NCBI GenBank assembly: GCA_011391085.1
Contig: JAABRD010000027.1
Coordinates: forward strand, 1-64,000
Source: Thiotrichaceae bacterium
GTDB lineage: Bacteria > Pseudomonadota > Gammaproteobacteria > Beggiatoales > Beggiatoaceae
DNA length: 64,000 nucleotides
Reading direction: 5' to 3'
Shown: positions 9,386 to 26,721 of the stretch, in pieces
Position numbering within the stretch: position 1 is the stretch's first letter
How the letters are laid out: each line of letters begins with the position of its first letter
Translations under genes and position numbers: made by a program
The notes under the pieces: model-generated
Seen by the model: the letters and a program-made list of their open reading frames with translations, nothing else
What the model was told of the DNA's origin: nothing
The model's database searches: none

Positions 9386-9787
9386 CTACCCCTTCCCCTG
9401 TTCCATCAAACTAATAATTTTCTTCAAATACGCATTTTCCTGTCTTTGTTGTTCTAAGAGGAGACGACATTTTTCTAGTTCATGTTTGAGTTCAATGAGT
9501 TCCGTTGAATCAGAATTAATATACCACTGGCCAAAATGAGTATTAGTATTGCCAGTTCCTGCCACATTAAATACATTCTTGTCATCGCCCCCCAAGAGTT
9601 CTGATGATTCCATTTCAAACACTTCCGCTATTTGTTTGAGTCGGGGTGGTGGGATATAGGCTGTTTTACCGCGTTCAATATTCCCGTAACCATTCACCGA
9701 CATTCCTAACTTTTCGGCCATTTTTTCTTGAGTCCAACCTTTGAGTTGGCGAACTTTTTTAATCTTTTCAAGGACTTCCATAGACAA
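9386..9787 (-). CDS. XRE-family transcriptional regulator with C-terminal coiled coil
   Basis: 133 aa. The N-terminal HTH (about 10-65) reads VRQLKGWTQEKMAEKLGMSV then YGNIERGK, a standard lambda-repressor-type fold. A linker of about 25 residues follows, then a coiled coil (about 98-130: LKHELEKCRLLLEQQRQENA) likely for oligomerisation. The protein at 26296-26721 has the same plan (HTH, linker, LLLEE/YLK coiled coil), so the two are paralogues. A perfect 21-bp palindrome begins 8 bases upstream of the start, suggesting autoregulation. The next gene is divergent and has a second palindrome, so it may be co-controlled. The start could instead be the second Met, two residues on. Confidence 0.85.
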   Translation of the reverse strand: MSMEVLEKIKKVRQLKGWTQEKMAEKLGMSVNGYGNIERGKTAYIPPPRLKQIAEVFEMESSELLGGDDKNVFNVAGTGNTNTHFGQWYINSDSTELIELKHELEKCRLLLEQQRQENAYLKKIISLMEQGKG

Positions 9788-13079: not shown

Positions 13080-13787
13080 TCATTGGCCAGGTGGGGTAAC
13101 TTTCGGAACTACCGTCCCAAAGACGACATCCTTAATGGCCGTACTATACTTCATGGCCAAAATGGCCTTTAGAAATATTTCTGCGTCAAAATCCTTTATC
13201 AGTAAATCTGTTCCTTCAACTTCTATTCGATCTACAGGAATCCCATACAGCAAGGCAAAATATTTTCTAAAGTCCTGCATATCGGCCACTTTTTGAGTAG
13301 AGACAATTCTCAGTTTTTCGTAACTGAATGTCTTGTTGCCCTCATAGTATCCCGGCACTTGCCACGAGAAAGAATGGTTGTCCTTGTTAGTGATCGTAAC
13401 TCGAAGTTTACGTTGCGCCCTGATGTTTAAAGACGTCTCTTCTGGGCCACTTAGCAAGTCCAAAAAACTTTCTTCTTTCGGACTACCTGATGAATACGAC
13501 GTAGCCTCTTTATCTTTCTTCCCTTTATCTTCTCCAGTGGCTACCGCGGGAAGTTTATCCGCGTCTTTTTCCGCTTTTTTGTCTCCCCCAGCGGCTTTGG
13601 TAGCGGCGGGGGGGGGTTCTGGACCTGAATCCTGTTTCGGTGGTTCAGAACCATTTTTGGTATCATTAGGCGAATCGCCAGAAGCTGTTGTGGCCTCCTC
13701 TGGTCGTGTGCGACCACTGTCAGCACAGGAAGTGCTGAACACGACCATCATACTCAAGCACAACATCATCAAACATTTTTTCCTCAT
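13080..13787 (-). CDS. lipoprotein with acidic/proline-rich linker, unknown function
   Basis: 235 aa, last gene of a four-gene lipoprotein operon; its ATG overlaps the stop of the preceding gene by 4 bases. The N-terminus MRKKCLMMLCLSMMVVFSTSC is a lipoprotein signal peptide with the modified Cys at about 21. Residues about 25-100 are low-complexity (Pro, Glu, Lys, Ser, Asp), suggesting a flexible tether through the periplasm. A folded C-terminal domain (about 105-235) contains RKLRVTITNKDNHSFSWQVP and ends PKVTPPGQ. No family is recognised. Co-transcription with the other three lipoproteins implies a shared envelope complex. Confidence 0.75.
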   Translation of the reverse strand: MRKKCLMMLCLSMMVVFSTSCADSGRTRPEEATTASGDSPNDTKNGSEPPKQDSGPEPPPAATKAAGGDKKAEKDADKLPAVATGEDKGKKDKEATSYSSGSPKEESFLDLLSGPEETSLNIRAQRKLRVTITNKDNHSFSWQVPGYYEGNKTFSYEKLRIVSTQKVADMQDFRKYFALLYGIPVDRIEVEGTDLLIKDFDAEIFLKAILAMKYSTAIKDVVFGTVVPKVTPPGQ

Positions 13788-15685
13788 GGATTTGCCTCTT
13801 TTTGTGTATTTGTCACGTACTCTAGCCTAAGTTGTGGCTTTCCACCCTTGTCCTTTGGTTGGAAACCAATAACCATCTCCTTTGATGTCACATCCTGATA
13901 CTCCGGCGAAAAAAACTCCTTCACAAATCTTGCCCGGAGGTCCTCCTTGCCATACTCCACTTCCAAATTTCGAATGACTATTTTGGTCGCCTGGCGTCCC
14001 CTATTGGCATCCGTCTGGGCCTCGGTAATCCGCTTTAGTGCAACCATGGCTTTATCTTCCATCTGAACACTGGAAGTATACACAAGCGCATCTTGATAAA
14101 AATCTGCCAAAGATTGCCCATCCTTGTAAACCCAAGAAATGCCTTCCGTCTGAGGAAAAGAAGAACCACATTCGATGGTCCATGACCAGGTTCGATAGTT
14201 ATCCCCATTCAACTGAATCCGTGGGTTATCACATCGATGATAAAAGCTACTGGTATTGGCAACCAATAACCCCAAAGTGAACAGATAGGCTTTGCTAGGG
14301 TCAACCAGATGGCCAACGTTTTTGACGTCTTCCTGACCATGGTTCATAGCCGTCTTTCTCAAAATCTCTTTGACTTGACTGCTGTTTAGCCAGGGATTTA
14401 GAGAAAGAATATTAAAGACCACTTGGGCCAGCACCGGCGTTGCAAAAGACGTCGACTTTTCGGAAGCTTCTAGCATCAGTTCACCCGTGTTCTCCCGCGG
14501 TTCACCCGTGTTCTCCTGCGGTTTACCTGTGTTCTCCCGTGGTTCACCCATGTTCCCCAGTAGTGGGTCGGTAGGAGAAACATTGTTGTCCCCTAACACC
14601 GTGAAAAACTCAACCCCTGCACTGCCTAAATTGTCTCGCTTCACCGTATAACCGCCACTTTCTTGATACCCAGAAGTGGAAACCAATATCGCATTGGGAA
14701 AAGTTCCTTGAAACTGTTTTAGTTTTTCAAGATGTGTGGAGTCATTGTAAGCCTCTGACTTATTGGCCAACGCAACCAATAACAGATAGGCTTCTTGTCG
14801 AGACTGCCATTGGGCATCTTCGTTAAATATGGTACTAAGGGAATACTCACCACCAGCGGGCTTTGGAAGAGAACGGTTGATATCTTCCAATTCCTCCCCT
14901 TTAAAACTATAAGACACTGAGATAATCCGTGTCCCTTTATCCACTTGTTTGACCAGCGTGTCGGGAAATAAGTGAGTGATTACGGAACCCTCTTCACCTA
15001 TTTCACCTATCGTGTCTTTTGAACGTTTGGCATGAAAGTAGTTTATATCTGTGTTTCCGGTTTTGTTATAGCCAATAAACTTCCCCTTCATGCCTCTGGT
15101 AACAGGCATTGTCACTAACACGTCATGATAGACTCGCTGGCTAGTTCCCTGACTGACAGCCTGTTGAGTCTCCCCCTGTTGTGCCAACGCTATCATGTTG
15201 TTATTGATGTTCTCCTGAATGGTTTCCACGAAACCCTCAGAATCGATTCTTATGTTGGGTTTAGCCCCCTCTGCCAAGAATTCGAGAACCGTTATCTCAA
15301 TTTCAGAATGAGGTTGTTGCGGGAACAGATTCTCCTTCACAGTAGCAAAATCGTTGATGAACCGAAAAGAATCAAGATAGAAACTCTTGATCTCATCTTC
15401 CGAGGGAGTATCGGCCCGGGCGGGAGTCTTGTCAGTCAAGACCAGTTTAAGCAGACTGTTTAATCCTGCAAAAAACCTCCCCGTGACACTCTGAGGATTC
15501 AGAAAACCTTCACGTTCATTGTTCCCCTTAACCTCCCCCTGCTGTCGATACAGTTCACTTACGGCTCCCATTTGAGAGGGGGCATCAAAATAGTTTCCAT
15601 CTGTTGCCGGTCTTGAAATTTGCGTACATCCACCGAACAACATCCATATTATTGGATAAGCCCATGCAAATCGAATTTTTCTCAT
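13784..15685 (-). CDS. lipoprotein with a degenerate subtilisin-like (S8) domain
   Basis: 633 aa from the ATG at 15685, chosen because it begins a lipoprotein signal peptide (MRKIRFAWA, lipobox LFGGC, Cys20); the open frame extends 16 codons upstream into the preceding gene. A subtilisin-like arrangement is visible: ITVLEF (about 131-136, where the catalytic Asp would be, here Glu), DTLVKQVDKGTRIISVSYSF (about 242-261, like the helix-strand before the oxyanion region), AILVSTSGY (about 332-340) and STSFATPVLAQ (about 411-421), which matches the catalytic Ser motif. No HGTH-like His motif is present. ENTGEPR-type repeats (about 380-403) are inserted just before the Ser motif. It is probably a pseudoprotease or substrate-recognition protein; catalysis is doubtful. 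Confidence 0.65.
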   Translation of the reverse strand: MRKIRFAWAYPIIWMLFGGCTQISRPATDGNYFDAPSQMGAVSELYRQQGEVKGNNEREGFLNPQSVTGRFFAGLNSLLKLVLTDKTPARADTPSEDEIKSFYLDSFRFINDFATVKENLFPQQPHSEIEITVLEFLAEGAKPNIRIDSEGFVETIQENINNNMIALAQQGETQQAVSQGTSQRVYHDVLVTMPVTRGMKGKFIGYNKTGNTDINYFHAKRSKDTIGEIGEEGSVITHLFPDTLVKQVDKGTRIISVSYSFKGEELEDINRSLPKPAGGEYSLSTIFNEDAQWQSRQEAYLLLVALANKSEAYNDSTHLEKLKQFQGTFPNAILVSTSGYQESGGYTVKRDNLGSAGVEFFTVLGDNNVSPTDPLLGNMGEPRENTGKPQENTGEPRENTGELMLEASEKSTSFATPVLAQVVFNILSLNPWLNSSQVKEILRKTAMNHGQEDVKNVGHLVDPSKAYLFTLGLLVANTSSFYHRCDNPRIQLNGDNYRTWSWTIECGSSFPQTEGISWVYKDGQSLADFYQDALVYTSSVQMEDKAMVALKRITEAQTDANRGRQATKIVIRNLEVEYGKEDLRARFVKEFFSPEYQDVTSKEMVIGFQPKDKGGKPQLRLEYVTNTQKEANP

Positions 15686-15687
15686 GT

Positions 15688-16131
15688 TCACCACCACCCA
15701 GTTGATTTTGATTTTAAATCTTCTATCACCCAAACCATGCCCTTGTCACGCAGAGACAAACCATTTTTGGAGAGCATGTTGGAAAATTCTTGCTGACTGC
15801 CCAGTAAACTGTCAAGATATTCGGCCCTGGCTAAATCCAGTGAACGGCCTGGCTTTAACTCCATCGTTTTCAACTGGATTGATCTTGAGGAGTTGTTTTG
15901 TAAATACAAGGCGGTTTGTTTAACCTGCGCCCTGCCTGGCCCCCCAGATGCCATGTCCCCTCCCCTACCTCCATTCGGAGAGTTCGCAGGCCCTTTGAGA
16001 ACAGGAACTTGCACACTGGGCACATAACAGTAGTCTTTGTCACAATAAGCCTCTCGAACTTGAGTGGGAGGACAACAACCTGCCATGAGTCCCAACCAAA
16101 ACAGTCCGCCTAACCAAAAAATTACTCGCAT
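15688..16131 (-). CDS. small lipoprotein, unknown function
   Basis: 147 aa, second gene of the lipoprotein operon; it overlaps the first gene by 10 bases and is followed after 2 bases by the S8-like lipoprotein. MRVIFWLGGLFWLGLMAGC is a lipoprotein signal with Cys at 19, followed by CPPTQVREAYCDKDYC, a Cys-rich segment that could form disulfides. A Gly/Ser/Pro-rich linker (about 45-70) precedes a C-terminal part including RSIQLKTMELKPGRSLDLAR and a final helix. No homologue is recognised. RBS and overlap support this start. Confidence 0.75.
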   Translation of the reverse strand: MRVIFWLGGLFWLGLMAGCCPPTQVREAYCDKDYCYVPSVQVPVLKGPANSPNGGRGGDMASGGPGRAQVKQTALYLQNNSSRSIQLKTMELKPGRSLDLARAEYLDSLLGSQQEFSNMLSKNGLSLRDKGMVWVIEDLKSKSTGWW

Positions 16132-16517
16132 GAGAACACCTCTATTTTTATTGGTGGTGTCAGTGTGGGATAACCTCTACACTGATTTGTAACCAACAGG
16201 TTGTAAAAAGCCCAAAATTCTCTTCCAGATAAAGACACTTCCAGAGAACGGTTTGCTTCCACCACCTCGTTACCTCCTTCTTTGGGGATAGGAAGGGGGC
16301 GATTGGAACGGTTAGTGATTCCCCAAATCAACGAATTTTCGGAAATGTTCCGAGGATACTGGTCACCAAATAGTGGTGGTGGTGTGCGTGTGGATGGTCG
16401 TATCGTTATTGTGCTACCGGGTTGGCTAGAAATCGTCTCATTCTTAACTCTAGCACATCCCCCAACCACTATGCTAAACACGACCATCATGATTACCGCC
16501 ATGACTTTATTTTTCAT
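16122..16517 (-). CDS. small lipoprotein, first gene of the lipoprotein operon
   Basis: 131 aa. The signal peptide MKNKVMAVIMMVVFSIVVGGC gives a lipidated Cys at about 21. A short Ser/Thr/Pro-rich linker leads to a small domain containing ENSLIWGITNRSNRPLPIP and a C-terminal pair of Cys (TNQCRG and FSCE). The layout (lipobox, linker, small domain with NRS/NNSS then L-LSGREF or LLGSQQEF) resembles the next gene, so they may be distant paralogues. A strong Shine-Dalgarno GAGGAGG lies 6 bases before the ATG. It is divergent from the TPR-CHAT gene across a 513-base AT-rich region. Confidence 0.75.
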   Translation of the reverse strand: MKNKVMAVIMMVVFSIVVGGCARVKNETISSQPGSTITIRPSTRTPPPLFGDQYPRNISENSLIWGITNRSNRPLPIPKEGGNEVVEANRSLEVSLSGREFWAFYNLLVTNQCRGYPTLTPPIKIEVFSCE

Positions 16518-17030
16518 TTTAACCTCCTCTGCAAAATTGCAATCAGCTTTCTTAAACCTTGGAGGTTTAGGAAAGCGGTGTTAACCTTCACTGTAACTCA
16601 TACATGTAGCAAAATTTGTTCCTATGCTATCTGATAGTTGACAATATCATCGGTAACGCTTTGTAAGTAAAATATAATTCAGTTATTCACAGGGTTTATT
16701 CTCATTTTGAGAAATTTTCTCGCAATTTGCGCAATTTTAGGTATTTCATTGATTTTTAAGTAGAAAAATGAGTGTCCTGACATGACAAAATGTCATACTT
16801 TTTTTTTATAAAAATCAAATACTTACATATAAACTATCCTATTTATACTGACAAAATGACATGAAATTACTTTTTTTACAATTGGAGAATTATTACAAAC
16901 ATTTTAGGGTCCTGGTGTTTTTTTAATAAATTGGCATGATTTTTCCATATTAATTGCCAGAAGGAAAAAGACGCAAAGCCAACGCTTTGGACTTCTGACA
17001 AAACACTCATTAAACACCATTTACCAAATC
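16518..17030. promoter_or_regulatory. AT-rich divergent promoter region between the lipoprotein operon and the CHAT gene
   Basis: No gene. A hairpin GCTTTCTTAAACCT/AGGTTTAGGAAAGC lies at about 16548-16578 in the operon leader. The 15-bp palindrome ATGACAAAATGTCAT (16782-16796) and a near copy CTGACAAAATGACAT (about 16848-16862) lie 66 bases apart and are candidate sites for a shared regulator. The segment is far richer in A+T than its surroundings. A short AAAGCC/GCTTTGGACTTCTG fragment of a hairpin family lies at about 16974-16998. Confidence 0.5.
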
Positions 17031-19991
17031 ATGACCCAGTTAAGAATCTTACTTCTATTCATTTGCCTCCTCAGCCTTTCGCCCCTTCTCCTTGCTACCG
17101 AATCACAACAGTTCTATATTGAATTAGAACAACTCCATTCGGAGGGAAGGCTGGCATTTGAAGAAGCAAGTGACTATCCTCTAGCACGTCAAAAATTTCA
17201 AAAGGGACTGGAATTGGCCCTGAACAATGACGAGTGGAGTGGCATTTTTCATACCGCACTTGGCATAGTTTATCAGGAGTGGGGAAAGTTTCAACAGGCC
17301 CAGGAACATTTTCAAACAGCTTTGGATATAGATTTTGAAACGGCCAATCAAATTGGTACGCTAGACACCATAAAAAAAGTGATAGCCGACTTTAATAATC
17401 TGGGCGTCGTCTATGATAACCTTGGCGAGAGGCAACGCGCCCTGATCGCGTATCAAAGCGTCCTAGAGATTCGTCGCCAATTGGGTGATCAGGAAGGGGA
17501 AAGTCAAGTTCTGACCAATCTGGGTGTGTTCTATCTCAACCAAGGAAATTATCAATCTGCGTTAGAATATTTCTCGACAGCGATGACCATTCAAACACGC
17601 CTTGCAACTCAATCGTTTGAACCAGATAAGCGTAAAGAATATCAACGGCAAATAGCTGAGAACTTTTCCAACCTGGGCATCTCTTACCAAAGTTTAGGAG
17701 ATGACTTATTGGCTTTGAAATATTTGGAACAGGCCCTCTCTCTGCAACGCGAACTCCAAAATAAGTCGGGTGAAGGGACCGTACTGAACAATCTTGGAAA
17801 TGTTTATAACCTCCGCCAAGATTATCAAAGTGCCTCTTGTCACTATCAAGCCGCTTTGGAAATTCAACGTGACTTAGAAAAACAACAGGACCAGGCAATC
17901 ACTTTGGCTAACTTGGGGGACATCTCTAGGAAACAGCAAGATTACGATAAGGCTTTGGAATATTTTCAACAGGCGCAATCCATCTATCAACAGAAGCCAA
18001 ATAAACGTGGAGAAAGTGCGGTCATCGTCAATTTGGGAGAGATTTATTATCTGAAAAGTCAAGAACAAGATCAACAACTGCTAAAGACGGCTTATCAGAC
18101 CTTTCAACGTGGGTACCAGTCCCTCCAAGAAATTCGTGGAGAAGACAGATGGCGGGCCCAAAGCGGATTGGCCAATATCGAAGTTCTATGGAAACAGTTT
18201 CCAGACGCCATTCAACATTACCAGGAGGCACTTGACAATCTTGAGGAGTTGCGCACGGGTATCAAGTCTGATAATTTCAGACAATCTTTTATGGCAGATG
18301 ATGAGAAACTGCAAGTCTATGACAACTACATGGCACTCTTGTCCCAACGAGTCCAACATCATCAAAAACAGCGAGACAGTCAAGCAACCACTCAAATGCA
18401 GAGAGAAGCCTTTGAATTGTTTGAACGTAAGCAGGGGCGAATGTTTTTGGAAGAAATGGGGAAAAGTGTGGCCGGCAGTCTGGGTCGATACCTACTCCCT
18501 TCCGAATTATGGACCAAAGAAGCACAACTGGCTAAGAGTCTTTCACAAGTCACTCAACAGTTGACCAACGAACTGGCCAAAGGTGAACCCGATATTGAAC
18601 ATCTACATGTTTTACAAACACAGCACATTGAACTGGTTAAGCAGGAGACCGAATTGCAACAACAAATCGCTATTGACCACCCAAACTATTCCGCGCTTAA
18701 ATATCCTAAACCGGTAGCTTTGGACACGTTACAACAACAAGTGTTACAAAAGAACGAGGCTATCCTGATCTATCATGTTAGGAAGAAAGCCACTGATGTC
18801 TGGCTAATTGGGCCAGGGCATTTTGAGATGTTTTCATTACCGTTGACCGCTAACACTCTGAAAGAACAAGTTGATAAGTTCCGCGAAACAGGAGTGGACT
18901 CCGCAAAGACTACCGACTCGTCAAAGTTATCAGAGTCTTTGAAAAACGCACAAAAGAAGTTTATCAACGCCAGTGCGACTCTTTATCAGACCCTATTTCC
19001 ACCGGAGATTCGTCAGCGGTTGGCAAGCGTTTCTCCCCAGATTTTATATATCGTTCCCACTGAAGCGTTATATCAGTTGCCCTTTGAGGCCCTGGTCACT
19101 GATCATTCTGAAGACAAACCGCATTATCTTATCCAAGATCATGCCGTCAGTTACTTATCTTCCGCCTCCCTGCTAAAGACGCTACGAGAGGCAAGAAACA
19201 TACGCTTGAAGACAACTTCTCAAACGTCGCGCCAGCCAGTGTTGGTCTTTACCAATCCAGACTATCCTCTTTGTCCAGAACCGAAAGGGGAGACCACAGG
19301 GGAAATAATCATGCCTACTCAACTGCGTCGACAAATTTATTTGAAGGGGATGAATATGCCAGATGGCCAAGAATGTTTTGGAAAATTGGCCGGCACGGAG
19401 GGAGAAGACATACTCAAGGTATTCGGCGTGTTTGAACCTCAACCCTCACCCTTTTTACAAAAGGATACAGAGGCTTCCAAGACCAATTTGTTGAAGTTCA
19501 ATGACAATGATGCCAAACCGGGACTAGACGATTTTCAGTACATTCTATTTTCCACTCATGCAGTGGTTCCAGACCCCGTCACTCCTCTGAATCAACCGGC
19601 GTTGATCTTATCACATAAACGGACTACTGACGACGGTTTTTTAACCATGACTGATGTATTTGGGTTAACAATGAATGCTGATTTGGTGGTATTGTCGGCT
19701 TGTAATACGGGACGCGGTGAAGCTGTCAAAGGCGAAGGAGTACGGGGGTTGACTCGTGCCTTCATGTATGCAGGCACTTCTGCGGTGGTAGTCACTTTAT
19801 GGTCAGTCGAAACTCAATCAACAGAACAATTAAGCATTCAATTGTTCCAAGAACTCAAATCCACCAAAGGAGAATTATTGGCAAAGAGTTTACAAAATGC
19901 AAAGATAGCCATGTTGAATGACCCAATCCATTTCTACCCTTATTTTTGGGCAGGGGTGGTGATATTTGGAGAGGGTCAACTTGGGAACTAA
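17031..19991 (+). CDS. secreted TPR-CHAT protein (caspase-fold protease)
   Basis: 986 aa. N-terminal signal peptide (about 1-22, ending LLLATES) predicts export to the periplasm. Residues about 40-410 hold eight or more tetratricopeptide repeats of the kinesin-light-chain type, recognisable by repeated LGVVYDNLGERQRALIAYQ-like motifs. A helical linker (about 410-560) follows. The CHAT domain (about 580-986) has the caspase-like dyad: His843 in ILFSTHAVVP and Cys891 in VVLSACNTGRGE, then GVRGLTRAFMYAGT and VVTLWSVE. Both residues are present, so it is probably an active cysteine protease or one activated by TPR-bound partners. Divergent from the lipoprotein operon and followed by a CHASE2 gene, as is common for TPR-CHAT genes of multicellular bacteria. 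Confidence 0.9.
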   Translation: MTQLRILLLFICLLSLSPLLLATESQQFYIELEQLHSEGRLAFEEASDYPLARQKFQKGLELALNNDEWSGIFHTALGIVYQEWGKFQQAQEHFQTALDIDFETANQIGTLDTIKKVIADFNNLGVVYDNLGERQRALIAYQSVLEIRRQLGDQEGESQVLTNLGVFYLNQGNYQSALEYFSTAMTIQTRLATQSFEPDKRKEYQRQIAENFSNLGISYQSLGDDLLALKYLEQALSLQRELQNKSGEGTVLNNLGNVYNLRQDYQSASCHYQAALEIQRDLEKQQDQAITLANLGDISRKQQDYDKALEYFQQAQSIYQQKPNKRGESAVIVNLGEIYYLKSQEQDQQLLKTAYQTFQRGYQSLQEIRGEDRWRAQSGLANIEVLWKQFPDAIQHYQEALDNLEELRTGIKSDNFRQSFMADDEKLQVYDNYMALLSQRVQHHQKQRDSQATTQMQREAFELFERKQGRMFLEEMGKSVAGSLGRYLLPSELWTKEAQLAKSLSQVTQQLTNELAKGEPDIEHLHVLQTQHIELVKQETELQQQIAIDHPNYSALKYPKPVALDTLQQQVLQKNEAILIYHVRKKATDVWLIGPGHFEMFSLPLTANTLKEQVDKFRETGVDSAKTTDSSKLSESLKNAQKKFINASATLYQTLFPPEIRQRLASVSPQILYIVPTEALYQLPFEALVTDHSEDKPHYLIQDHAVSYLSSASLLKTLREARNIRLKTTSQTSRQPVLVFTNPDYPLCPEPKGETTGEIIMPTQLRRQIYLKGMNMPDGQECFGKLAGTEGEDILKVFGVFEPQPSPFLQKDTEASKTNLLKFNDNDAKPGLDDFQYILFSTHAVVPDPVTPLNQPALILSHKRTTDDGFLTMTDVFGLTMNADLVVLSACNTGRGEAVKGEGVRGLTRAFMYAGTSAVVVTLWSVETQSTEQLSIQLFQELKSTKGELLAKSLQNAKIAMLNDPIHFYPYFWAGVVIFGEGQLGN

Positions 19992-20571
19992 AATAGTTGG
20001 AGGTGATGCAATGTGGGTTCTCTGTCTGAACTCTGATTAGAATGATTTTCAGATTGACTATGATTGGTCAAGCCTCCTTTCATAGCCCTCATTTAATCAT
20101 CTCAATCAGAGTTCCAGACCGACGAGAAACCGCACGATATTTCACACACATCATATATAGTAATATTCATCATCATTTGTACCCCCCTGCCCCCGTACAC
20201 GGGGGGAGTGACTCCCCCCCGCGTGCGGGGGGGCAGGGGGGGGTACAAATGAGAAGGAATATTACTAATATGTGAAAGACAAAATGAAAGGAAGTGCGTG
20301 TGTTCAGCCCCTCTGTGTCTCTTATTCTCATCACACACATCATATACATCATACACATCACAGTTTCAGATTATCACCCACTCTGCATCACTACCAATTC
20401 CATAATCTCAGGGCTTACGCAATCGTGTTTGTCACCCGTTGAGTTGACCCCCCTAGCCCCCCCGCACGCGGGGGGGAATCACTCCCACCCCGCGTGCGGG
20501 GAGGGGTGAGTGCGTAAGTCCATAATCCGTTTAATTCGTCAATCCATTGTAGTCACTTAGAGAGAACCATT
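19992..20571. repeat. nested small repeat elements between the CHAT and CHASE2 genes
   Basis: 20004-20150 is a copy of the ~150-bp element also found inverted at 36931-37090 (GATGCAATGTGGGT end, internal TCTGATTAGAATGATTTTCA). Its far end is interrupted by a second element (20150-20274) with ends TATAGTAATATT (20156-20167) and AATATTACTAATA (20258-20270), also present at 59625-59740. The second element contains a C-run/G-run palindrome at 20186-20245. CACCCACTCTGCATCACTACC near 20375 looks like the displaced end of the first element. Another CCCCC/GGGGG palindrome lies at about 20449-20505. No gene is seen. Confidence 0.75.
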
Positions 20572-21996
20572 ATGCAAATCTCATCTTTTTTCCATCGCCT
20601 CTCACATAACCTTCTGATAGGTTTTGGTGTTAGCCTATTATTTTTGCCATTCCATGATACCCACTTTTTCCACCAAGTGGAAGACTGGGCTATTGATGTC
20701 GTGATCAAACTACACAGTGGAACTCCACCGGCAAAGCTTGACACACCTTCGTTTGTCTGGCTAGACATTGATGAACCCACTTATCGCAACTGGGGAGAAC
20801 CATTGATGACGCCGCGTGACAAACTGTTGCAACTACTTAAAGTTGCGGTGCGAGAACAAGCTAAAATCGTGGTAGTGGACATTGATTTAAGTTGTCCCAC
20901 TGAGTTAACGTGTCCCCTCGACCGTCGTCTCGCGTCGTTAGACAAACTTGGCAACCAAAACGACAAAGAGTTATACAATTTTTTGGCCAGTTATGAAGCC
21001 ACTTACTGTCAAAAAAGAAAGTGTCCATATCTGTTTCTGGCGAGAAACACTCGTAATCCACTAGATTCTAATTTTCCTTATCGAGAACCAGTCGCATCAT
21101 TTTTGGAACCGGTCATCAAAGACTCCCCACAACTTCATTGGGCCTCCACTTTGTTTGACCTAGCCGATGACCAAAGACTCCGCCGATGGCATTTGTGGCA
21201 ACCAACATGTGATGGCGAAGTCGCTGGTGTACTTCCCTCCATGCAGTGGCTAACGCAACAAATTATGGAGAATGGAAATACGGGGCAAGATATTTTGAAA
21301 AAGTATGTGCCGCACTGCCCATCCGTTCAAGCACAAAGTGGCCACGTTCTTCCTGAAGAGGAGGGGGGCTGGTTTGACCTTGTCAAACAGACTATGACTT
21401 CTATCAAACAAGCCGTCACCAAGTGTTTGGGGGGGCACATAGACCCTTTAGAAGACTCCGAATTGAAACGTCGAATTCTCTATCGAATACCCTGGTCAGA
21501 AATACGACTCCCAACCATGGCAGACGGCCATCTGTTACTGGATATTATACCGGCCCAACACATCACTGATAACGGTAAAAATAAACCATTGGCGCCTGAC
21601 TTCCTCAAGGGAAGAATAGTGGTCATTGGAGGCAGTTACGAAAGTAGTCGAGATATTTATGCAACGCCCATTGGTAGAATGCCTGGTGCCTTGGTACTCA
21701 TCAATGCCATTCATTCTCGCTTGCAACATGGCGAACTTCATCCGCCGGAATGTTGGAAAATGGTGCTGACTGAGATAAGTCTAATTGTTCTGATGAGTCT
21801 CGTTTTTAGTTATTTTTCAGCCTTTTCTGGCCTCTTGGTATCTGGTTTTATTATTATTTTCATATTCGTGCCACTCTTGACATTCTCGCTGTTTGATAAG
21901 TATGGAGTTTGGTTAGACTTTGCCATTCCTTTGCTGGCGGTACAACTTCACTATTTACACCTCAGATGTAAAGAAAAATCGGCGACACCTTCTTGA
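20572..21996 (+). CDS. CHASE2-domain membrane protein
   Basis: 474 aa. One N-terminal transmembrane segment (about 12-28), a large extracytoplasmic CHASE2 sensor domain (about 45-385) and three hydrophobic C-terminal segments (about 395-465), ending in a short tail with no kinase, cyclase or other output domain. CHASE2 hallmarks are FVWLDIDEPTYRNWGEP, TPRDKLLQLL, VVVDIDLS and the downstream LKGRIVVIGGSYESSRDIYATPIG with GALVLINAIHSRL. CHASE2 domains sense unknown extracellular signals. Without an output domain it probably works with a partner, most plausibly the neighbouring TPR-CHAT protein. Its stop codon lies inside the first copy of a 54-bp direct repeat. Confidence 0.88.
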   Translation: MQISSFFHRLSHNLLIGFGVSLLFLPFHDTHFFHQVEDWAIDVVIKLHSGTPPAKLDTPSFVWLDIDEPTYRNWGEPLMTPRDKLLQLLKVAVREQAKIVVVDIDLSCPTELTCPLDRRLASLDKLGNQNDKELYNFLASYEATYCQKRKCPYLFLARNTRNPLDSNFPYREPVASFLEPVIKDSPQLHWASTLFDLADDQRLRRWHLWQPTCDGEVAGVLPSMQWLTQQIMENGNTGQDILKKYVPHCPSVQAQSGHVLPEEEGGWFDLVKQTMTSIKQAVTKCLGGHIDPLEDSELKRRILYRIPWSEIRLPTMADGHLLLDIIPAQHITDNGKNKPLAPDFLKGRIVVIGGSYESSRDIYATPIGRMPGALVLINAIHSRLQHGELHPPECWKMVLTEISLIVLMSLVFSYFSAFSGLLVSGFIIIFIFVPLLTFSLFDKYGVWLDFAIPLLAVQLHYLHLRCKEKSATPS

Positions 21997-22284
21997 AGAG
22001 TGGGGAGGTGCCTACGGCCGGCCGGCTAAAGCCTCCACTCCACCGGCTAGTGAAGGAACACGCCGGTGGACTTACGGCTTTAGCCGGTGGAGTGGAGGCT
22101 TTAGCCGGTGGAGTGGAGGCTTTAGCCGGTGGAGTGGAGGTTTTAGCCGGTGGAGTGGAGGCTTTAGCCGGTGGAGTGGAGGCTTTAGCCGGTGGAGTGG
22201 AGGCTTTAGCCGGCCGGCAGTCGGCCCCTTCTTGAAGAGTGGGGAGGTGCCTACGGCCGGCCGGCTAAAGCCTCCACTCCACCG
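21992..22284. repeat. six 21-bp tandem repeats bracketed by 54-bp direct repeats
   Basis: The unit GGTGGAGTGGAGGCTTTAGCC is repeated six times from 22086 to 22211 (one copy has GGTTTT). It is bracketed by a 54-bp direct repeat at 21992-22045 and 22231-22284 that includes GGCCGGCCGGCTAAAGCC. Unit length is a multiple of 3, but it codes for no recognisable protein. It is an expanded form of the window's main hairpin family. Confidence 0.9.
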
Positions 22285-22406
22285 TACAAGGCTTTGGTGG
22301 GGGCGAACTCACACACTAAAATAGGTGTTGCACACAAGGTTACTAGATGTCTTAGTTTTGTAATTATTTCTCTCCCAGTTTTTCTCGTTAATTAGGAGGT
22401 CTTTCT

Positions 22407-23399
22407 ATGAACTTTACTCTGAAACACTCTGTCAGTCTTATCCTTGTTGGTCTAACTTCTGTGGTCCACGCCAACCCGCCAGAGATAGTGGGGCGGATTG
22501 AAAACTTTGATGGTTATTTGGAACCGTTTACTGTCAAAGTTGGTGGCAAAGAAATGGTAGTTCCCAGGTCCTATACTCTCCTCCGTAACGACCAAGTGTT
22601 AGAAATCAATCTCTTGACTGAATTACAGACCGGTGACCGTCTCATTGTAAATGACGGAAAACATCATCTGGAGTTGAAATTGGCCGGTGAAAAATTGCTG
22701 GTCAATGTGTCTCTGGAAAATTCACCTTATACGGTGACAACCAAGAATAAGATTCCTACTTGGGGTGGGAATGTTATAGATTCGTTAGTAGATTGGTTGA
22801 CGAATACACATCAGCAAGAGGTGACGGCAGTCCCCGTAATGACCAAGGGTGCCCAGGATTCGAACAAAAAACCTAAAATAGGGTTGTTAGATGTAGAAGA
22901 AGAGGCATCCCCTAAGCAGTTGATGAAGATCGCGGAAACACGACCTCTATTTCTTGCGTGGACAGATGGCAAACCTCCTTATCAAGTGAGTATCAAATCA
23001 GGACGAGATGGGCAAGAAACACTGTTTTCAACGGACCAACTCCAAACTCAAACCTTGTCTATTCCTGAGTTGCCATTGAAAGTTGGCGAATATCGAGTCT
23101 TACTTCAAGATGCCAATTCTCATCTTGTGGAATACCACTTTAGCGTCGTGGAAGCGGCCAAACCTGATTATCCTGCCTCATTGACTGATGAGAGTTTGGA
23201 AGACGCCACCCGCATAGCTTTACAAGCGACCTGGTTAGCCAAACAAGATAATGGCAAATGGTCATTTGAAAGTTATCAACAAGCGGCCGCTTTTCTTGGA
23301 CAACCAGACTGTCAAAGGGAGGCCGAACAAGGGCTAGAAAAATGCCATTTTGTCCGTTTGTTAAGCGATTTCTTAGTTCAAGGTTGGATGGTAGAATAG
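22407..23399 (+). CDS. secreted FecR-like/beta-domain protein of the CHAT-CHASE2 locus
   Basis: 330 aa with a signal peptide (cleavage likely after VHA at about 22) and an excellent RBS (AGGAGG, 7 bases before the ATG). The N-terminal half has ELQTGDRLIVNDGKHHLELK, reminiscent of the FecR fold often found next to CHASE2 and CHAT genes; this is a weak resemblance. A middle segment with RPLFLAWTDGKPPYQVSI and LKVGEYRVLLQDANSHLVEY looks like an Ig-like beta domain (about 175-250). The C-terminal part (about 260-330) is helical with paired Cys residues. Function unknown; it could bind ligand or scaffold the periplasmic parts of its neighbours. Confidence 0.72.
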   Translation: MNFTLKHSVSLILVGLTSVVHANPPEIVGRIENFDGYLEPFTVKVGGKEMVVPRSYTLLRNDQVLEINLLTELQTGDRLIVNDGKHHLELKLAGEKLLVNVSLENSPYTVTTKNKIPTWGGNVIDSLVDWLTNTHQQEVTAVPVMTKGAQDSNKKPKIGLLDVEEEASPKQLMKIAETRPLFLAWTDGKPPYQVSIKSGRDGQETLFSTDQLQTQTLSIPELPLKVGEYRVLLQDANSHLVEYHFSVVEAAKPDYPASLTDESLEDATRIALQATWLAKQDNGKWSFESYQQAAAFLGQPDCQREAEQGLEKCHFVRLLSDFLVQGWMVE

Positions 23400-23436
23400 T
23401 CGTAGAGTAGCAGTAATCATTCAGAAATCGGTAGCC

Positions 23437-23525
23437 AGGTAGGGTGCGTTAGGCGCGTCTGTTTGCGCCGCAACGCACCTTTTGGTATCCCGAAAGGGTG
23501 CGTTACGCTATCGCTAACGCACCCT
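23437..23525. repeat. GGGTGCGTTA-type inverted repeat
   Basis: GTAGGGTGCGTTAGGCGCG and the inverse CGCTAACGCACCCTAC flank an inner pair AACGCACCTTTTGG/CCCGAAAGGGTGCGTT. Related pieces occur at 9321-9382 and 11688-11710. It is a small mobile or REP-like element. Confidence 0.65.
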
Positions 23526-23549
23526 ACGCCACTACGCCACCCTCTTCCC

Positions 23550-23700
23550 TTACTTCTTCCGCACCGTCACCCCAATGCCATTATCCACTGTTGCGGTATG
23601 ATGATTATACACCACCGTCCCGTTGTCTTGGAGGCGATAGCCAAAGCTAATGCTTAGGCATCCTCTGGCGTAAAGCTGGAACAATGGACCACGGTGGGCA
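23550..23700 (-). pseudogene. frameshifted C-terminal remnant of an unknown protein
   Basis: On the minus strand the frame ending at the TAA at 23550-23552 reads SISFGYRLQDNGTVVYNH then a Thr/Val-rich stretch ending GVTVRKK. Immediately upstream a different frame reads LPTVVHCSSFTPEDA and then meets a stop, and the two would join smoothly as FTPEDA-SISFGYRL with one frameshift. Both halves look protein-like, so a decayed gene end is likely. The family is not recognised. Confidence 0.35.
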
Positions 23701-23741
23701 GTTTCCAGTTTAAACTAGGATGATTCAAACAACTTAATCTT

Positions 23742-25016
23742 TCATTTTTGTTTAAACAATCTATCGTACTTGACATTATCTCCAGGGACCAACTCATAGC
23801 ATGTATCTACCGCTTTGACTTCTTGCGCTTCCTGTAGCAACTCGCTAACCGTGACAAACTCATATCCCTGTCGTTTTAGCCAGGGAATGAGTTCTTCTAA
23901 GGCACCCGCTGTACCATGACCGCGACCATTGGCATGGGCGATGATAATTGACCCAGGTTTGACTTGTTTCTTGACAATGTTGATAATGCCCTTAGCCGTT
24001 TGTTTTGGGGAAGGATCAGCCGTTACCACATCCCATTGGATGGCCAGTAATTGCTGTTGTCTGAGGAAATCTAGGGACTCGCTGTTACATCTACCATACG
24101 GGAAACGAACAGTACGCATTTCAGGAATCTGATGGTAACCAGATGCTACAAGTTCGTCACGAAATTCTTCATAGACTCTTTGAGTTTTCAATATTTGCCG
24201 TTGCATTTCCTCGCCATGTAAAACGGCTAGATTGCCATGGGACCAAGTGTGATTGCCAAGTTCAAAAAGCAGGTTAGTCATCAACTCTTTAGTTTCTTGA
24301 GAGTGTGATTGCATCCATTTTCCACCGGCATAAAAAGTTGCTTTGACCCCGTTTTTGATTAGTTGTTCAACCACCGCACGGTCGTAACCTGCAACTTCAT
24401 TCTCTCGTTCACATAAGTCGAATGTTAAAGCTACCAATTTTTGATTTTCGCCCAGTATCACACTACGAATAGATTTACCAAGGAGATTATGAGAGAGTGG
24501 GGGTGGAAAGCCATAAGGGTATTTGCCTTCAACTAATTGTGCTTGAACGGATTCTGGTTGTTGTTGAGGCGATGGTTGTGAATCGTGAGAAATGGATGAA
24601 TTTAAACGTTGTTCTAAGGAATCTTTTGTGATCATCCAACTACCGTCTTTTTGAGTGAGCTCTATATCGAAATCGAAACCAGTCATCTTGGTTTCTCGAC
24701 TGGCATCATGGCGAATCGAACTATAAGTTGCTGTCATGAAAGCGGTATTTTCAGTTTGACTGGTGATGGTGAAATTTTTAAATTCTGACCCATCACCGCG
24801 CATTAAGTCCCACAATCTTCTACAATCAGCCTGAGAGTAATTAAATCTAAGTTGAATAGCCATTTGGCAATCTTCCCTCGAAAGGGCTGTATAGAAAATT
24901 TTGGCAACTTGTTCTGGCGTGTTTACATAAGGTTTTGGTGCCGCCAAAAGATTCCCTGAAATTCCTAGAATCAGAAAGAGGGTGACCCAAAGGCGAGTGT
25001 GTAGTGATATTGACAT
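23742..25016 (-). CDS. secreted polysaccharide deacetylase with N-terminal NTF2-like domain
   Basis: 424 aa with a signal peptide (cleavage near LLAAP, about 26). An NTF2-like region (about 30-145) starts VNTPEQVAKIFYTALSRED. The NodB domain (about 190-400) has motif 1 as LTFDLCE (the usual second Asp of TFDDG is replaced), the metal-binding HTWSHGNL (H-x3-H), RFPYGRCN and a late IIIAHANGRGHG. It is likely a CE4 deacetylase acting on peptidoglycan or exopolysaccharide N-acetyl groups; activity is probable because the TFDLCE form is found in a natural subfamily. It shares an EQV-x2-xY start in the NTF2-like part with the next minus-strand gene. Confidence 0.85.
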   Translation of the reverse strand: MSISLHTRLWVTLFLILGISGNLLAAPKPYVNTPEQVAKIFYTALSREDCQMAIQLRFNYSQADCRRLWDLMRGDGSEFKNFTITSQTENTAFMTATYSSIRHDASRETKMTGFDFDIELTQKDGSWMITKDSLEQRLNSSISHDSQPSPQQQPESVQAQLVEGKYPYGFPPPLSHNLLGKSIRSVILGENQKLVALTFDLCERENEVAGYDRAVVEQLIKNGVKATFYAGGKWMQSHSQETKELMTNLLFELGNHTWSHGNLAVLHGEEMQRQILKTQRVYEEFRDELVASGYHQIPEMRTVRFPYGRCNSESLDFLRQQQLLAIQWDVVTADPSPKQTAKGIINIVKKQVKPGSIIIAHANGRGHGTAGALEELIPWLKRQGYEFVTVSELLQEAQEVKAVDTCYELVPGDNVKYDRLFKQK

Positions 25017-25097
25017 ATTTTAGTTTCCCTTTACCAAGCATCATAGAATTTAAATTGAATGAGAAAAATTGGCTGATGGTTGGTAATTTTGGTTTAT

Positions 25098-25889
25098 TTA
25101 ACGGGCACTACGGATGTTGGTGATTTTCCATTCACCAGAGATTTTTTCCAAATCTATGGTGACGCTCCAACGTCCAGACGCTTGCCCCTTCTTTTTTCCA
25201 GACACTTCAGCCGAGACTGTTGCAGACTTGGAATTGGCACTAATCAACTCCATCTGGTTCAACTTAAACCATTCAACTCCATCAGCAAGACCACGTATCT
25301 TACGTTCCTGACTGTCTGACGAAAAATTCCATTTGTCCATGGCCGAGTCCACCTGACCTTTATCCAGGTTGCTGTAATAGTTGCGCACCACTTGTTCTGG
25401 TGAACTCTCGCTCTTCTCGATTTGGGAAATCTCCTCGGATTTCTGTCCAAATATTCCTATCCCGTAGTAACAACTGAGTGTAGAACAATTTTCCATAATA
25501 ACTTCCAACTTGAACTTGGCTTTCTGTTGGGAAGAAACCCGTAGCATGGGGTTATCGTCGGTATCCATGTCAGATGAAACCACATCATCTTCGTTGTCGT
25601 ATAGACGTAAGTCAATGTCACCACAATCGTTGTCGCAAACGCCCACAATCACATACGGAATACCTGCGTCGAGAGTCAAAGTGTGTGTTTTTGAGCTTTT
25701 ACTTCTGATTGTATTCACTACGGGGTCGTGAGTTAGTTGGTAATTATCTCCAACTCCCAAGACGACCGCGGCCCTCACCAACTGATCTCGCACTTGATCC
25801 ACAAAACTCTTTGCCAATACAATTTGTGGGCAAAGCGACAAGGCAAGTGTTAGTGTTAGTTGTTTCCAATTCCAAAGGCTAATATACAT
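25098..25889 (-). CDS. secreted protein with C-terminal NTF2-like domain
   Basis: 263 aa from the ATG at 25889, chosen because AGGA precedes it and the signal peptide (LTLTLALSLC, cleavage after VLA) starts there; the open frame runs 13 codons further up. The N-terminal part (about 30-150) is a beta-rich domain with acidic clusters (CDNDCGDIDLRLYDNEDDVV) and four Cys. The C-terminal domain (about 160-263), SSPEQVVRNYYSNLDKGQVD to KISGEWKITNI, resembles NTF2/SnoaL-like folds and the N-terminal part of the deacetylase downstream of it. Secreted proteins of this plan often neighbour CHAT or CHASE2 genes. Function unknown. Confidence 0.7.
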   Translation of the reverse strand: MYISLWNWKQLTLTLALSLCPQIVLAKSFVDQVRDQLVRAAVVLGVGDNYQLTHDPVVNTIRSKSSKTHTLTLDAGIPYVIVGVCDNDCGDIDLRLYDNEDDVVSSDMDTDDNPMLRVSSQQKAKFKLEVIMENCSTLSCYYGIGIFGQKSEEISQIEKSESSPEQVVRNYYSNLDKGQVDSAMDKWNFSSDSQERKIRGLADGVEWFKLNQMELISANSKSATVSAEVSGKKKGQASGRWSVTIDLEKISGEWKITNIRSAR

Positions 25890-26295: not shown

Positions 26296-26721
26296 ATGAA
26301 AACTCTTCTGATGAAACAAGTTTCTCAAAATATTCGCACACTACGGAAATTGAAGAACCTGAAACAAGAGATGATGGCGGTGGATTTGAAGCTGTCACCC
26401 CATGCTTATGCCAATATTGAACAAGGGAAAACTGATATTCAATTGTCGCGATTGGAACAGATTGCCCAAGTGTTGGGAGTAGAGATAACGGATTTGTTTA
26501 GCTGTGAGAAAGACTTGGGGGTTAAATTATCTATTGAGAGTTCTCATGTCATTCATAATTATCAACAAACCTCTCTGGAGGTTCATCAAACGGCAATAAC
26601 TGCGCCACCGCCAAATGCTCCAAGGGTTGAACAGGAGAAGACTCAGTTGTTATTGGAGGAAAAGGAAAGGGAAATTGTTTATTTGAAGGAGATGATTGAG
26701 TGGTTGAAGCAGAAGGTTTAG
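26296..26721 (+). CDS. XRE-family regulator with C-terminal coiled coil (paralogue of the 9386 gene)
   Basis: 141 aa. HTH at about 10-65 (RTLRKLKNLKQEMMAVDLK then YANIEQGKTDIQLSR, LGVEITDLF). A linker with PPPNAPRV follows, then a coiled coil (about 112-140: QLLLEEKEREIVYLKEMIEW). Architecture and the LLLE/YLK coiled-coil pattern match the regulator at 9386-9787. Two paired inverted repeats lie upstream and are probably its own operators. Start is the first ATG; the next, five codons on (MKQVSQNI), is also possible. A decayed copy of its last 17 codons lies at 30361-30411, on the far side of the vapBC array. Confidence 0.85.
   Translation: MKTLLMKQVSQNIRTLRKLKNLKQEMMAVDLKLSPHAYANIEQGKTDIQLSRLEQIAQVLGVEITDLFSCEKDLGVKLSIESSHVIHNYQQTSLEVHQTAITAPPPNAPRVEQEKTQLLLEEKEREIVYLKEMIEWLKQKV

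Follow-up and report, generated by a model that had tools for sequence, protein, structure and literature searches.

CHASE2 receptors usually signal inward, through kinases or cyclases, and the TPR-CHAT protease Csx29 of Craspase, a cytoplasmic, RNA-guided and CRISPR-bound enzyme, is reportedly controlled by a bound partner. Here we describe a locus of a Thiotrichaceae bacterium (assembly GCA_011391085.1) in which a CHASE2 membrane protein without an output domain lies between the genes for a TPR-CHAT protease, predicted to be exported, and a secreted protein, hereafter the partner. The locus lies in a stretch of 64,000 nucleotides that we call the window (contig JAABRD010000027.1, our contig C61, from a genome of 5.77 Mb in 140 contigs). 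Unlike Csx29, the window CHAT protein begins with a signal-like stretch, and a scan of the nine window proteins revealed nothing CRISPR-related.

Parts of this arrangement have published relatives. MtxA of Magnetospirillum is a 313-aa secreted protein with a beta region and Ig-like and TPR-like domains, and the gene after mtxA has similarity to CHASE2 and adenylate cyclase; a periplasmic signalling role was proposed, and an mtxA deletion is reported to have no clear phenotype (PMC4439547). The window partner resembles MtxA in being a secreted protein of about 310-330 aa with a beta region, an Ig-like domain and a helical C-terminus whose gene adjoins a CHASE2 gene, but the CHASE2 neighbor of mtxA has cyclase similarity, whereas the window CHASE2 is output-less and has a predicted exported protease nearby. 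In the BiofilmReg operon of Burkholderia, an exported partner gene likewise adjoins a CHASE2 receptor gene, although there the partner is a LysM-FecR protein and the output a cytoplasmic histidine kinase with a response regulator, with no protease; the same paper calls the ligands of CHASE2 domains unknown (PMC5192318). CHASE2 has also been coupled to clan-CD proteases within single proteins, as described in reports on a caspase-CHASE2 fusion in Trichodesmium (PMC2853523, PMC3501461) and on an EACC2-caspase protein with a variable C-terminus that can include CHASE2 (PMC8195603). In the Trichodesmium fusion the caspase is placed in the cytoplasm, whereas in the window protease and CHASE2 are encoded by separate genes, the protease is predicted to be exported and there is a third partner. 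Thus, CHASE2-caspase fusions and CHASE2-partner operons are already published; the three-part combination is new as far as we found, with one open literature library returning neither a paper combining "CHAT domain" with CHASE2 nor a description of an output-less CHASE2, a secreted partner and an exported protease together.

We consider it probable that CHAT, CHASE2 and the partner constitute a module for envelope signalling, found repeatedly in Beggiatoa/Thiomargarita-type bacteria and sporadically in other proteobacteria. The first gene in the window (17031-19991, plus strand) encodes a 986-aa protein with TPR repeats and a Pfam CHAT match at residues 648-980 (E = 1.5e-54; 185.9 bits against a curated cut-off of 24). 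Its domain and catalytic dyad mark it as a putative clan-CD cysteine protease: an earlier, sequence-only reading of the window had named H843 and C891 as an intact dyad, and we confirmed that they fall in the dyad columns, where 38 of the 39 aligned rows, the window's among them, have both residues, while the sole row without them is half of a split open reading frame (ORF) that is missing this region. Its N-terminus carries the signal-like stretch MTQLRILLLFICLLSLSPLLLATES. The CHASE2 gene (20572-21996, plus strand) encodes 474 aa matching Pfam CHASE2 over residues 27-409 (E = 1e-19; 71.6 bits against a curated cut-off of 26.3). As had been claimed, Pfam finds no output domain in this protein, and an AlphaFold2 model (predicted local distance difference test score, pLDDT, 86.8; predicted template modelling score, pTM, 0.88) starts with a helix, followed by an alpha/beta domain and three C-terminal helices, the last of which occupies residues 448-471, almost at the end of the chain. 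Compared with PDB structures, this model gave no fold match with E under 1. The third gene (22407-23399, plus strand) encodes the 330-aa partner, which has an MtxA-like layout and whose homologues adjoin short CHASE2 genes.

We examined how often these genes occur together across the family to which the source genome belongs (42 genomes, 25 genera), counting as short CHASE2 those ORFs of 400-639 aa in the stretches fetched from the family (n = 42) and using long CHASE2 genes as controls (n = 28, comprising 23 from a first table and 5 added). The partner lies within 1.5 kb of 29 of the 42 short CHASE2 genes, always on the same strand, and within 6 kb there is a CHAT gene for 21 and a CHAT or caspase gene for 25. 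Many stretches stop at contig ends; where a short CHASE2 gene is flanked on each side by 5 kb or more of sequence, the partner is present in 12/14 and a protease in 11/14. By contrast, among long CHASE2 genes of the same genomes the partner was found in 0/28 and CHAT within 6 kb in 2/28 (Fisher's test, short against the first 23 long CHASE2: p = 1e-8 for the partner and 1e-5 for CHAT). In the fetched stretches the partner and short CHASE2 genes often overlap, with CHAT nearby. Gene order varies, from CHAT-CHASE2-partner in Marithrix (L086), where 36 and 21 bp separate the genes, to CHAT-partner-CHASE2 in Thioploca (L039) and CHASE2-partner-CHAT in L066, and because the same genes stay together while their order changes, selection on the grouping itself is favoured. 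Relatives of the partner occur in 22 of the 42 family genomes, and outside the family it is rare, since its profile finds just 3 of 369 genomes sampled across the class, the source genome included.

A CHASE2 scan of GTDB species genomes yielded 45 loci, most with a CHASE2-partner pair, from groups that include Competibacteraceae, three "Deltaproteobacteria" metagenome-assembled genomes (MAGs), soil Proteobacteria, Alcanivorax, Gallionella, an alphaproteobacterium and Nitrosomonadales. For 15 short CHASE2 rows that lie outside the family or come from Thiomargarita SulCav, we found the partner within 1.5 kb in 9 and a CHAT or caspase gene within 6 kb in 9, at a partner threshold of E = 1e-5 that excludes weaker Alcanivorax partners seen at 1e-4; L179, a near copy of L157, was omitted, and the CHASE2 row of L168 is missing from the count owing to an overlapping ORF, although CHASE2, partner and an upstream caspase are all present there. 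A 682-aa ORF in L168 had looked like a natural CHASE2-partner fusion, but CHASE2 is actually in another frame. The three genes are contiguous without gaps as CHASE2-partner-CHAT in the Deltaproteobacteria MAG L142, are ordered CHAT-CHASE2-partner in Competibacteraceae L141, and also occur in the soil MAGs L157 and L179.

CHAT and caspase proteases both belong to clan CD, and we observed that the two are exchanged at this position: most loci encode a TPR-CHAT protein, whereas others have a caspase, frequently combined with DUF4384, that replaces or joins CHAT. A caspase (PF00656) adjoins the pair in Parabeggiatoa L035, Alcanivorax L160 and L176, Gallionella L172 and L168, and L057, and in L181 the protease is a WD40-caspase with a lipobox. 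Scored with a crude pattern, 14 of 16 module caspases have the histidine motif, 13 the cysteine motif and 12 both. Signal-like N-termini are found on most module proteases with intact starts. Several individual architectures stand out: in Thiomargarita sp. SulCav (L144:1223-8568) three lipoprotein-type caspases surround one CHASE2-partner pair, caspase and CHAT domains are fused in one protein at L041:3968-6559 and L034:11679-15074, and the module CHATs of L136, L086 and L089 have an N-terminal PDZ domain before their TPRs, for which the window CHAT has no match.

Comparison of pairwise distances indicates that receptor and partner co-diversify at the sequence level. CHASE2 and partner distances are correlated over 24 loci (r = 0.65, p = 0.0005), with the same nearest locus in 15/24, and the correlation persists when shuffling is confined to paralogous loci within genomes (12 loci, p = 0.015). 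CHAT and CHASE2 distances are correlated as well (15 loci, r = 0.34, p = 0.002; same nearest locus in 8/15). For all three window proteins the nearest relative is L136 from Thiomargarita sp. SulCav, at 54% identity for CHASE2, 38% for the partner and 52% for the CHAT stretch.

We tentatively propose that the output-less CHASE2 and the secreted MtxA-like partner control a CHAT or caspase protease outside the inner membrane, in a periplasmic form of caspase-type proteolytic signalling. CHASE2 is predicted to be an inner-membrane protein whose sensing domain faces the periplasm; with nothing but helices on the cytoplasmic side, it would not signal inward as CHASE2 kinases and cyclases do, and its signal would go sideways. 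Because the output is gone and an exported protease is at hand, a sideways route through the periplasm is the simplest. The signal would pass from CHASE2 to the secreted partner and then, through the partner or directly, to the exported clan-CD cysteine protease. Ligand binding or envelope damage might alter a CHASE2-partner complex, and the altered complex would most likely release or activate the protease, leading to cleavage of periplasmic or surface proteins, so that the receptor complex would govern periplasmic proteolysis. Physical contact among the three proteins and this direction of control are presumed in the proposal, as are export and activity of the protease, and the pathway could conceivably serve in cell death, matrix turnover or defence. 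The sequence-only reading had guessed at a periplasmic relay from CHASE2 to CHAT, which is consistent with the module. If the proposal holds, bacterial caspase relatives, usually seen as cytoplasmic death or defence enzymes, would also signal in the envelope, one lineage would have swapped a cytoplasmic output for an exported protease, and such an envelope role would be testable in culturable relatives in Alcanivorax.

Several observations weigh against this interpretation. In the window itself the three genes are loosely spaced: about 580 bp separate CHAT from CHASE2 and about 410 bp CHASE2 from the partner, with palindromes and repeats in between, and they may be separate transcripts. The figure of 29/42 is not a blind rate, because short loci were chosen partly through partner matches, and 19 CHASE2 fragments were excluded from the counts. 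The Mantel tests leave species relatedness in the correlations, and the CHAT stretches compared span 267-914 aa. Nor is export a special mark of the module, since exported CHAT is common in the source genome anyway: 10 of 12 further CHAT rows from that genome have a hydrophobic N-terminus. Finally, the components also occur apart. The CHASE2-partner pair has no protease nearby in a paralogue from the source genome (L033) or in L165 and L166, and in L147 and L163 it lies amid housekeeping genes without a protease; the short CHASE2 genes of L063 and L064 have neither partner nor protease; and partner homologues occur without CHASE2, for example in L073, L074, L075, L077, L079, L081 and L083.

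These protease-free pairs are what would be expected if CHASE2 and the partner formed an envelope sensor or structural complex that is complete in itself, with CHAT and caspases merely frequent neighbors drawn from exported multigene families that cluster in these genomes. The CHASE2-partner link is indeed tighter and more regular than the link to the protease, and CHAT genes are numerous, with 15 in the source genome and up to 43 in other genomes. We nevertheless regard this explanation as unlikely: CHAT is concentrated near short rather than long CHASE2 genes within the same genomes, contiguity with the protease recurs outside the family (L141, L142, L157 and L172), and two protease types occupy the same place.

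A second alternative, in which CHAT serves as an effector that cleaves substrates in connection with two-partner secretion (TPS) and surface adhesins and CHASE2 is a bystander, appears very improbable. TPS-domain proteins do occur near the pair in L055, L102 and the source-genome paralogue L033, and active-type S8 subtilases lie near it in L054, L055 and L065, all from one genus; yet Pfam detected no TPS protein among the nine window proteins, few neighbors having been scanned.

The three long CHASE2 proteins that we scanned all have GGDEF-EAL or cyclase outputs. Exported genes adjoin some long CHASE2 genes of the same genomes, encoding DUF928 (L109, L184 and L197) or LolA-like proteins (L107 and L183), and two further scanned neighbors are PP2C-type. 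Because DUF928 and LolA-like exported genes adjoin output-bearing CHASE2 genes, an exported partner seems to be a recurring need of CHASE2, and the module suggests that CHASE2 receptors may generally work with one. Tandem CHASE2 arrays are present in L061, L067, L068 and L098, from the genus that includes Parabeggiatoa, with one ORF of 1942 aa carrying CHASE2 matches.

The identity of the partner was considered separately. It had been labelled FecR-like, a name that the family data do not bear out: 0/26 partner homologues match Pfam FecR at E = 0.5; PF04773 itself has matches in 17 of the 25 family genomes searched. Aligned by hhalign with 16 true FecR domains from family genomes, the partner gave 2.9% probability and E = 0.015 over 35 columns, and because these best columns are in the expected register, a very divergent FecR-like N-terminus is possible. 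Strands are predicted at residues 27-101 and 172-248 and helices at 257-326, and in the model (pLDDT 75.3; pTM 0.55) a beta domain is followed by an Ig-like domain and a helical tail, an arrangement that, signal peptide included, fits the layout of MtxA. Generic Ig-like matches made up the bulk of the fold-search results; 4z29_B, the C-terminal part of MtxA, scored Z = 5.3 over 134 aligned residues at a root-mean-square deviation of 6.8, its Z tied with unrelated Ig-like rows, but among the 50 matches listed it alone spans both C-terminal domains, the others aligning over fewer than 100 residues. Homology with MtxA is not established, because none of the eight matches of the partner profile to PDB sequences, up to E = 10, is an MtxA chain. 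The same genome also carries, at G000:C137:13500-13835, a stop-containing fragment that is 92% identical to the C-terminus of the window partner.

The sequence-only reading had placed the three genes in a locus of nine, and we confirmed the coordinates and strands of all nine ORFs. A simple hydropathy scan of N-termini found a hydrophobic N-terminus, a lipobox or a transmembrane segment in 9/9, as claimed, so that every product is predicted to be exported or membrane-bound. The nine genes are real, yet they represent more than one system: the assignment of the output-less CHASE2 with the exported CHAT stands, while the lipoprotein operon that had been joined to them falls outside. This operon runs leftward on the minus strand over 13080-16517, its genes overlapping end to start: LP4 (16122-16517; 131 aa, lipobox VGGC) overlaps LP3 (15688-16131; 147 aa, lipobox MAGC) at 16131/16122, LP2 (13784-15691; 635 aa) starts with GTG at the 15691/15688 overlap with LP3, and LP2 and LP1 (13080-13787; 235 aa) overlap at 13787/13784. 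The overlapping arrangement is as had been described. The LP1 lipobox (FSTSC) is atypical, and LP1 may be either a secreted protein or a lipoprotein. The operon diverges from CHAT across an intergenic region of about 0.5 kb (16518-17030), in which promoter-like matches are not evidence of function.

By the distribution of its sequences, the operon is an orphan, a lineage-specific neighbor outside the module. Among the 42 family genomes, LP1, LP3 and LP4 match only in their own, and none of LP1-LP4 has a match in 47 named or nearby stretches or, outside the window, in the 161 stretches fetched. In L136, which holds the nearest module, no lipoprotein operon lies upstream of CHAT. LP2 matched only itself among 39 relatives, bar one weak S8 fragment; its searches covered 25 of the 42 family genomes, with no full relative, and the 369-genome class sample gave LP2 itself and two serine-motif fragments (E = 1.3e-4 and 5.3e-4). 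LP2 had no match in eight genomes reached through named loci, where an empty result shows little, and none in plasmids or viral contigs, phages not being searched. In these neighborhood searches the arrangement of lipoprotein operon with CHAT and CHASE2 was restricted to the source genome, the outcome that the earlier reading had itself set against its proposal. A nine-gene locus acting jointly under a shared promoter region, although all nine products look exported and the operon diverges from CHAT, is therefore a highly improbable explanation, given that LP1-LP4, the deacetylase and the last secreted protein described below occur only in the window among the 161 stretches and that L136 has the module without the lipoprotein operon.

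The S8-like label of LP2 was modified. Pfam S8 matches residues 250-454 (E = 1.8e-6), covering profile positions 107-279 only, and the triad could not be placed: compared with active subtilases, LP2 aligns at the TSFATP serine motif alone, has no HGT motif, and its Asp and His were not located, so that the region is described here as degenerate. LP2 also contains, in frame, a 21-bp tandem repeat (14479-14555), and another 21-bp tandem repeat lies in the gap between CHASE2 and the partner (22062-22213). GC-rich palindromes in the gap between CHAT and CHASE2 (20180-20250 and 20448-20510) could be terminators or repeat elements.

Two genes to the right of the module, both on the minus strand, complete the nine. 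One (23742-25016; 424 aa, predicted exported) encodes a polysaccharide deacetylase, a label that Pfam upholds (E = 1e-18). The other (25098-25889) encodes a secreted protein without a Pfam family, and its former label, NTF2-like, was dropped, as the best NCBIfam match (E = 0.01) is far below that model's cut-off. Neither protein has a relative in the other 160 fetched stretches. Anti-phage defence was considered for the locus and rejected, PADLOC returning only TPR or helix-turn-helix-type similarity and weak, odd matches. Finally, two mutually related helix-turn-helix proteins of the Cro/C1 type (phmmer, 7.8e-13) flank the locus, at 9389-9787 on the minus strand and 26296-26718 on the plus strand.

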